Of a stretch of 64,000 nt of DNA, positions 14,178-41,109 are shown piece after piece; the stretch's first letter is position 1; the number at the start of each line of letters is the position of its first letter. The stretch is from Rhodovarius crocodyli. GTDB lineage: Bacteria > Pseudomonadota > Alphaproteobacteria > Acetobacterales > Acetobacteraceae. The stretch spans positions 248,001 through 312,000 of the forward strand of contig NZ_SACL01000001.1 of the NCBI RefSeq assembly GCF_004005855.1. The letters are read 5' to 3'. The position numbers and the translations under genes are program-made. The notes under the pieces were generated by a model. The model had not been told where the DNA came from. It worked only from the letters and a program-made list of their open reading frames with translations, and searched no databases.

Positions 14178-15915
<1,738 letters not shown>

Positions 15916-16140
15916 AAGGCTCAGGGGCTTTGCCCCCGAGACCCCCACCAGGAGATAATATCTCCTGGACCTGATGGGAGTTTGGCGCCCGGCCTTCGCA
16001 GGCGGGTCGCTTATATTATTATAAATATCAACGTTTTCAATATTTTGCACCAACTCCCCGGGGTCCAGGGCCGCTACGGTCCTGGCGGGGTTGTCAGGGG
16101 CAGCGCCCCTGACTGGGGTCCGGGGCAACGCCCCGGGGCC
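15916..16140 (+). repeat. Interspersed hairpin-rich intergenic element, copy A
   Basis: Fills the whole gap between the convergent stops of the ubiH-like gene and thiD. Order: a GGGGC-TTT-GCCCC hairpin (15924-15936); a perfect palindrome with 10-bp arms (15948-15968); TTTGGCGCC; an AT-rich core containing TTATTATAAATATCAACG; the 36-bp conserved block (16053-16088) that folds as CCAGGGCC-GCTAC-GGTCCTGG; then CAGGGGC-AGC-GCCCCTG (16096-16112) and a further GGGGC/GCCCC hairpin. Copies B (26157-26381) and C (40772-41017, inverted) share this layout. No transposase or flanking duplication is seen. Confidence 0.85.
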
Positions 16141-16932
16141 TCACCCCAGCCGCACCCCATGGTTCAACGGCCCATGCCCAGCGCCATACCCTGGTGCCGC
16201 CAGCATCGCTGCCCGCACATAGTCCCGCGCCCGCACGGTCGCGGCACTCAGGCTCATTCCCTGCGCCAGCCCGGCCGCCAGGGCGCTGGCCATGGTGCAG
16301 CCGGTGCCATGGGTGTGCCTCGAACGGATGCGGCTGGATTCGAAGCGTTCCGTGCCTGCGCGCGTCACGAGCAGGTCGACGAGCACTTCGCCCTCCATAT
16401 GACCACCCTTCAGCAGCACGGCGGGAACACCCAGTTCCAGCATGGCCTCGGCGGCGGCCTGCATGTCGGCTTCATCGCGAATCTCCCGGCCGGACAGCAC
16501 CTCGGCCTCGGGGATATTCGGGGTGATCACGGTCGCCAGCGGCAGCAGGCGGCGCTTCAGCGCCTCCACCGCATCCTCCTGCAACAGGCGGTGCCCGCCC
16601 TTCGCGACCATCACCGGATCGGCCACCAGGGGCACGCCGGCCGCGCTCTGCTCAATTTCCGCGCACACCGCCTCGATGGTCGGCACATCATGCAACATGC
16701 CGGTCTTCAGCGCGTCCGCGCCGATGTCGTCCAGCACCAGTTTCATCTGCTGGCGGATGAACTCTGGTTGAACCGGCACAACGCCGAACACGCCCAGCGT
16801 GTTCTGCGCCGTCAGGGCCGTGATGGCCGTGGCGGCATAGGCGTCCATGGCCATCACCGCCTTGATATCGGCCTGGATTCCGGCGCCGCCGCCCGAATCG
16901 CTGCCCGCGACGATGAGGACGCGGCCCTTCAC
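16141..16932 (-). CDS. thiD: Hydroxymethylpyrimidine/phosphomethylpyrimidine kinase
   Basis: A 263-aa ribokinase-fold enzyme that phosphorylates HMP and HMP-P for thiamine synthesis. The N-terminus [20 protein letters not shown], the central KTGMLHD and [10 protein letters not shown], and the C-terminal [18 protein letters not shown] anion-hole motif are all intact. The start is a GTG at 16932 overlapping the glmM stop by 4 bp (GTGA); no ATG fits the conserved N-terminus. It ends against repeat element copy A. No other thiamine genes are visible. Confidence 0.94.
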
Positions 16933-26156: not shown

Positions 26157-26381
26157 GATGGGGGCTTCTCCCCCATGCCCCACCAGGGGCGCTGCCCCTG
26201 GACCCCGCCAAAGGCCGAGAGGCCTTTGGAAACCGATACTTGGCGCCTTACCCTGGCAGTTGGGGCACCAGATTCATTTTATAATCAAGAAGAGAGGCGT
26301 TCCCAAGCCGAGGTGCCGACTCCCCGGGGTCCAGGGCCACTACGGTCCTGGCGGAGGTGTCGGGGGCGGAGCCCCTGACCG
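26157..26381 (+). repeat. Interspersed hairpin-rich intergenic element, copy B
   Basis: Fills the gap between the SDR start and the purF stop. Order: GGGGG-CTTCT-CCCCC-like hairpin at 26160-26175; a CAGGGGC-GCT-GCCCCTG hairpin; a stem CCAAAGGCC-GAGA-GGCCTTTGG (26208-26229) in the place where copies A and C carry a different palindrome; CTTGGCGCC; a variable AT-richer core; the 36-bp conserved block (26319-26354), with one base different from A and C; and a GGGGGC-GGA-GCCCCTG hairpin ending next to the purF TAG. The right end again abuts a gene 3' end. Confidence 0.85.
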
Positions 26382-29578: not shown

Positions 29579-29600
29579 GGCCCCGGCCTACCGCAAACAA

Positions 29601-29638
29601 AAAAGCCGGAGAGGGACACCCGTCCCTCTCCGGCTTTT
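29601..29638. terminator. Bidirectional rho-independent terminator
   Basis: A 13-base stem GCCGGAGAGGGAC pairs with GTCCCTCTCCGGC around an ACCC loop, flanked by A-run and T-run, so it works on both strands. It sits between the convergent transglycosylase and dctP genes. Confidence 0.93.
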
Positions 29639-29655
29639 TCTTTGCCCAGGGCCCG

Positions 29656-29674
29656 GCAGGGGCTGAGCCCCTGC
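29656..29674. repeat. Solitary GGGGC/GCCCC hairpin
   Basis: GCAGGGGCT-G-AGCCCCTGC, perfect 9-bp arms, 15 bp downstream of the dctP stop on the minus strand. Its stem matches the hairpin modules that end repeat copies A-C, so it may be an isolated module of that family, or simply a second terminator stem. Confidence 0.5.
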
Positions 29675-29688
29675 ACGCCCGCACCGCG

Positions 29689-40771: not shown

Positions 40772-41017
40772 GGCGGGGGTTTAACCCCGGCCCCCACCAA
40801 GGGGCGCCGCCCCTTGGAACCCCGCCAGGACCGTAGCGGCCCTGGACCCCGGGGAGTTGGCGCCGAACACTTAAAACGTTGATATTTATAATAAAAATTG
40901 ACGCCTCACCTACGAAGATAGGGCACCAAACCATTATCAGGTCCAGGAGATATTATCTCCTGGCGGGGGTGCCGGGGGCAGCGCCCCTGGCTGGGGGTTC
41001 GAGGGCAAAGCCCCTGG
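40772..41017 (-). repeat. Interspersed hairpin-rich intergenic element, copy C (inverted)
   Basis: Occupies most of the 338-bp gap after recQ; the remaining 92 bp before the MBL gene are ordinary leader. Read on the minus strand it has the same order as A: GGGGC-TTT-GCCC hairpin; an extra hairpin shared with B; the same perfect palindrome as A (40943-40963); TTTGGTGCC; an AT-rich core sharing TTATTATAAATATCAACG with A; the 36-bp block (40822-40857), identical to A; and a final CCAAGGGGC/GCCCCTTGG stem against the recQ stop. Thus the conserved right end touches a gene 3' end here too. Confidence 0.85.
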
Positions 41018-41109
41018 CGGCGCCCCACGCAACCGTCACTTGCACTCCCCTGACGCCACACGCTTCACTCCCCTCAGCGCCGCAAAGACGGCGCGAGAGG
41101 AGACGTGAC

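Follow-up and report, generated by a model that had tools for sequence, protein, structure and literature searches.

REPINs are described in excerpts of PMC3116915 as paired, inverted REPs with compensatory changes and with hairpin and clover forms. For bacterial MITEs, a review (PMC10969869) reports inversion for Correia, a 3'-untranslated placement for QMITE2 and terminator-like sequences for SPRITE. CGTC-tagged REPs of alphaproteobacteria are given as missing in Acetobacteraceae in excerpts of PMC3733652. A literature search at the level of titles and abstract openings returned no description of an element such as the one reported here.

The window, i.e. the whole stretch of 64,000 nucleotides of Rhodovarius crocodyli that was analysed, was predicted from its letters to contain three copies (A, B and C) of a hairpin-rich element, copy A filling a 225-bp gap between two convergent stop codons. 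The size and boundaries of this gap (15916-16140) were exact: on the left it is bounded by the TAA (15913-15915) of a + strand FAD-binding monooxygenase-like gene, and on the right by TCA (16141-16143), the stop of a − strand thiD-like kinase gene. Unlike copy A, copies B and C each lie behind one stop and ahead of one start codon. The claimed perfect palindrome (CCAGGAGATA-A-TATCTCCTGG) has 10-bp arms without mismatch, the sequence TTATTATAAATATCAACG is indeed common to the cores of copies A and C, and the 36-bp block at 16053-16088 recurs at 26319-26354 with 1 mismatch and, inverted and identical, at 40822-40857; a 35-base pattern of this block had no match (≤3 mismatches) in any of 100 dinucleotide shuffles. 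The fold of copy A was more stable than 200/200 shuffles on either strand (z −5.85 and −7.44). TTTGGCGCC and GCACCAA, which had been taken as short inverted ends, are inverted, but they mark the inner boundary of an inverted repeat that is longer and extends outwards through H1/H3. The GGGGC/GCCCC stems were present as described and are mostly element-borne: 7 of the 8 occurrences of GGGGCNNNGCCCC in the window lie inside A, B or C and the remaining one in another gap at 29659, and in 91 loci of the same genome, fetched around elements (273 kb, overlaps included), 206 distinct occurrences were located ≤230 nt from an H1/H3 match and 1 outside, within a called gene. Coordinates of the features are collected in Table 1.

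Table 1 Features of the element copies in the window, with strand and the analysis on which each row is based
Feature	Position	Strand	Basis
Copy A, whole element; occupies the complete gap between convergent stops	15916..16140	+	sequence reading
Left outer hairpin CTCAGGGGCTTTGCCCCCGAG, covarying stem	15920..15940	+	stem covariation
H1 palindrome CCAGGAGATAATATCTCCTGG, most frequent H1 type in the genome	15948..15968	+	comparison of copies
H2 stem-loop in centre (GGCGCC...GTCGC)	15984..16010	+	fold and terminator scan
AT-rich core; together with H2, the one-strand intrinsic-terminator signature	16011..16049	+	terminator scan
Inner edge of right arm; partner in predicted folds is AGTTTGGCGCC of the left side	16050..16064	+	predicted folds
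H3 hairpin CCAGGGCCGCTACGGTCCTGG, within the common 36-bp block	16065..16085	+	repeat search
H4 outer hairpin GTCAGGGGCAGCGCCCCTGAC, covarying	16093..16113	+	stem covariation
H5 outermost hairpin, adjoins right stop codon	16120..16136	+	stop-to-hairpin distances
Copy B; alternative H1 CCAAAGGCCGAGAGGCCTTTGG; purF-like gene stop and short-chain dehydrogenase start on its two sides	26158..26381 (left edge approximate)	+	
Copy C; immediately 3' of recQ-like gene stop	40772..41045 (far edge approximate)	−	

The description as a repeat was correct and its copy number was understated, A, B and C being 3 of at least 71 copies in the intergenic gaps of the window's genome (G000; 5.27 Mb, 48 contigs). 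Sixty distinct copies with the H3 block were obtained by extraction from fetched loci at ≤4 mismatches, and 11 additional ones were recovered as H1 places with different or degenerate H3 sequences. A 32-base pattern searched at ≤3 mismatches matched 58 places in G000 (32 forward, 26 reverse), and its reversed control 0. With the R. lipocyclicus (G072, same genus) version of site A as query, at least 36 further places in G000, counted from the matches listed and resting on the best 40 of 176 candidates scored, were matched over ≥150 bases. This sister subfamily has a different centre in 15/15 places read, with a stem of approximately 20-22 bp and a loop of approximately 30 nt.

The architecture is a quasi-palindromic chain of outer hairpins, H1, centre, H3 and outer hairpins with inverted arms, and the median span between outer hairpins is 233 bp (52/60 copies), below the 500 bp MITE limit. 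Within this one architecture hairpins and centres vary: H1 and H3 occur in very different types with complementary arms in each (CCAGGAGATAATATCTCCTGG, CCAAAGGCCGAAAGGCCTTTGG, CCAGGACCGAGCACGGTCCTGG, CCAGGAAACTGAGTTTCCTGG and others), some copies are degenerate, and a frequent H1 of R. lipocyclicus is CCAAAGGCCGAAAGGCCCTTGG. Profile R1, built from an RNAalifold core alignment and used as a profile only, matched 20/299 family genomes at E ≤ 1e-5, G000 included, many of the matches being partial. In other Acetobacteraceae genera an equal order of parts with long-stem centres was seen by eye. A strict linker pattern matched only G000 (4 places) among 385 class genomes, a count uninformative on spread, given the variable linkers and the small number of family genomes drawn. 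Long-stem relatives were also seen by eye at L084, L104 and L105 (G153, G288 and G096; another genus), in apparently one rplS-leuC gap of three species, with the two arms swapped in one of the three. In the R. lipocyclicus assembly, several copies are located where a contig ends.

Pairing in the outer stems has been kept while the sequence changed. Core-proximal outer hairpins were detected on the right in 59/60 copies and on the left in 57/60. At the three outermost positions, pairing was kept in 47-57 of 59 right stems (shuffle means 28-39) and in 50-55 of 57 left stems (shuffle means 23-36), identical hairpins being left unmerged in these counts (40 and 42 distinct). The weakest outer-stem position was left position 3 with 45/57 (shuffles: mean 38.6, maximum 43), and pairing was maintained across several pair types. 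Two-sided changes have left pairing intact in 22 distinct centre stems of the sister subfamily, whose halves were located by complementary probes at ≤4 mismatches, a procedure biased towards pairing. RNAalifold predicted 18 pairs in the core, in 0 of which both sides had changed; joint alignment of two H1 types is the probable cause.

Placement relative to genes was determined with a simple codon-usage gene caller made for this analysis. The 71 copies comprise 41 in convergent and 28 in co-directional context, 2 beside a contig end and 0 in divergent context; of the 63 gene junctions in the window, 41 are same-direction, and convergent and divergent ones number 11 each. Core overlap with a called gene of more than 30 nt occurred in 0/71 copies, and a called neighbour enters an edge at L007 and L032. 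The anticipated confinement to 3' ends was found in so far as a gene 3' end is present on at least one side in 71/71 copies, and was not found in so far as the opposite side is a gene start in 28/71. Of the 15 G000 copies of the sister subfamily that were read, 10 lie between convergent genes and 4 in co-directional gaps, and for 1 a left gene is missing. From outermost hairpin to stop codon the median distance was 6 nt on the right (n = 50; one at 80 nt) and 6 nt on the left (n = 42; two above 50 nt), and the element was closer to the stop in 19/22 co-directional sites measured. Element-free convergent gaps in the window are also short (8/10 are ≤13 bp), so the precision of the stop distance may partly reflect lack of room.

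A GC-rich hairpin directly followed by a T-rich tract, the criterion for an intrinsic terminator, is found on one strand of the centre. At dG ≤ −12 it was detected on the element's strand in 45/60 copies, on the other strand in 9/60 and in mononucleotide shuffles in 10/60; at a threshold of −10, 6/64 gene ends of the window had a signal of this kind no further than 100 nt away. For contrast, window positions 29579-29688 hold a strong ordinary bidirectional terminator between convergent genes, with an 18-bp stem and A and T tracts. Two-sided intrinsic-terminator-like stems between element arms were observed in R. lipocyclicus, at L289 and at L167 (about 1260-1480). RIP/BIME-1 is a REP pair with an IHF site (consensus WATCAANNNNTTR). 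An IHF site of this kind in the AT core between the palindromes was considered and rejected, the full consensus occurring in only 5/60 copies and ATCAA in 44/60.

Placement just behind stop codons together with a terminator signature would also be expected of a structured 3'-end module made by the host, i.e. hairpin chains that evolved in place at gene ends for termination or RNA stability and resemble each other through gene conversion. We regard this as rather unlikely. Among the copies in co-directional gaps, 12 have the terminator strand aligned with transcription and 16 opposed to it, and this absence of orientation bias counts against selection for terminating the upstream gene; a selected terminator role of the centre is putative. 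The mean column identity of 80% over the core of approximately 150 bp (47 of the 60 copies) likewise speaks against hairpins made in place, as do the empty alleles at B and C described below.

Thirty flanks were compared with R. lipocyclicus and 26 were used, L006, L011, L018 and L026 being without a usable match. The resulting 36 site pairs comprised 3 without right flank, 20 without left synteny and 13 with both flanks aligned. From these 13, L019, L042 and L076 were set apart, as they had been found via the R. lipocyclicus element and are biased towards occupied sites. Presence/absence between species, proposed as a check of orthologous gaps, was seen at the ten unselected two-flank sites (sites A, B and C plus seven located only through a flank): 7 were empty in R. 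lipocyclicus (B, C, L013, L015, L024, L028 and L048), 2 were occupied (A, with a different centre, and L012), and L009 held another hairpin array. Such an array with CTGCCAAAAAGTAATGGGGG was observed in R. lipocyclicus L217 and L208, at the orthologous place of L009 and beside the L029 flank.

At site B the element is absent from R. lipocyclicus, G141, G284 and G188, where the purF-like stop overlaps the next start (codons read by eye); G257 carries an unrelated insert, and the site is not spanned in G225. Site C is empty in R. lipocyclicus, and 0/5 other congeners have an element behind the recQ-like stop, the other side being non-syntenic there. Because three further congeners besides R. lipocyclicus are without the element, copy B would most simply be a gain. 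Judged from these alignments, loss in R. lipocyclicus does not appear to be the account at B and, more weakly, at C, and may apply elsewhere. The empty alleles at B and C are without a resident hairpin, which together with the stop/start overlap at B in four congeners argues against an origin in place. Two sites, L015/L216 and L048/L224, are empty except for a lone hairpin that resembles one of the outer hairpins in the occupied allele; this agrees with host-made gene ends, and deletion between outer hairpins fits there equally with insertion. The empty alleles L013 and L024 hold other hairpins, so that gain and loss both fit at these four sites.

Cores differ between species at shared sites. 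With the orientation scored on the asymmetric centre, by a probe that was correct on 60/60 control copies, 3/7 scorable centres were inverted (L012, L019 and L040) and 4/7 had the same orientation (L032, L042, L076 and L078); the call at L019 is weak (score 42 vs 30), and L032, L040 and L078 were oriented by the right flank alone. Excluded from this count were L066, whose relative is without a centre, and L001, L009 and L016, whose relatives have other centres. The two species have almost the same outermost right hairpin at L019, where the core is inverted. At L076 (L076/L120) the left outer hairpins are near-identical across species, as a host-made module would also predict, and H1 is different.

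The original prediction of a repeated, structured, family-specific 3'-end element is thus supported, and both branches of its either/or reading received support, the element branch from the repetition and at least one polarised gain, the branch of a structured 3'-end module from the terminator-like centre. With a probability of roughly two thirds, copy A is a non-autonomous, quasi-palindromic hairpin-mosaic element of Rhodovarius of approximately 230 bp, for which the following mode of spread, persistence and placement is proposed. The substrate of spread would be single-stranded or cruciform element DNA, which would explain both the hairpin chain and the absence of duplications, and spread may proceed via some enzyme or by replication template switching. 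Copies would then stay at their site, while recombination via the arms they share may exchange or invert the inner part. Insertions would survive where they are least harmful, just 3' of stop codons, and those that survive may serve as a structured 3' end of the RNA or as a transcription terminator. More tentatively, and with some doubt on our side, the element might be a RAYT-less mobile cassette that enters a few nt behind stops and spreads in a hairpin-dependent manner, its arms remaining at the site and its payload (a 22-bp stem or a terminator, one-strand or two-sided) being swapped between copies and flipped in place, i.e. a mobile, exchangeable gene end.

Two described modes of movement were weighed against this hairpin-mosaic reading. 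A classical MITE, an internally deleted IS moved by a DDE transposase that recognises terminal inverted repeats, would share the size, the inverted-repeat ends, the intergenic placement and the presence/absence, and direct repeats are stated to fade in older copies (excerpts of the review PMC10969869). The search for target-site duplications proposed in the original prediction gave no signal, the own left and right flanks of 52 copies being no more alike than mismatched pairs (permutation); a possible diverged 9-10-nt repeat was seen by eye at the flanks of copy B. As no autonomous partner was found in a transposase search directed at Y1 only, and GC-rich hairpin chains with varying centres are unlike a deleted IS, this origin is improbable. 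Movement as a REPIN or BIME by a RAYT (Y1) transposase would be in line with the inverted palindrome pair and spacer, the compensatory changes and the species-specific types. Against it, Y1_Tnp gave 0 matches in G000 and 0 in G072 and was present in 1/12 genomes searched (controls 5/14 matched), and the GTAG/CGTC tag was not noticed by eye at any hairpin foot in the listed copies, GTAG occurring in the H3 loop on the − strand; this explanation is highly improbable. The reading as a family of independently functioning small RNA genes, to which the strong fold on both strands and the 3 promoter-like matches in copy A (vs 0.1 expected) would be suited, has a practically negligible probability given 0 Rfam matches at gathering score in the window, wholesale hairpin and centre differences between copies, and use of the element in both orientations relative to genes. 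Rfam at E ≤ 1 in 7 loci gave three matches, all below gathering; the 6S-like one in L084 was rejected and taken as long-hairpin resemblance.

In the fetched loci of R. lipocyclicus, two related IS ends (...GTCTGAACA) abut a GCCCCC, CCCCC or GGGGGC element hairpin in 9/9 distinct contexts (L102, L122, L186, L189, L191, L198, L211, L228 and L273), a biased sample since the loci were fetched around elements. At L211 the hairpin is a lone one of element type, and the partial transposase there matched LZ_Tnp_IS481 and rve above cut-off. These IS ends resemble ISs targeting REPs.

Like REPINs and BIMEs as presented in excerpts of PMC3116915 and PMC2817692, the element has two inverted palindromes with a spacer between them, stems that covary, many copies and an extragenic location. 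Unlike them, it is a multi-hairpin chain with varying centres and a terminator signature in the centre, in genomes (G000, G072) where a RAYT gene was not found, and with the foot tag not noticed by eye; the CGTC-tagged REPs are palindromic repeats of the same bacterial class, and their tag was likewise not noticed by eye in the element. With bacterial MITEs (Correia, ERIC, QMITE2, RUP/SPRITE), as characterised in PMC10969869, it shares non-autonomy, a length below 500 bp, inverted ends and intergenic placement; unlike these, it shows no detectable target duplication, is composed of mosaic hairpin modules, keeps a short and narrow distance to stop codons, and has no known partner IS (transposase search for Y1 only). 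The element works like a REPIN or MITE population and is classed as neither, because one defining feature of each was looked for and found absent. If the proposed reading is true, a REPIN-like population exists in genomes where RAYT was not found, the question of its mover is directly testable in Rhodovarius, and a mobile element with interchangeable terminator cores can supply gene ends in a bacterial genus.
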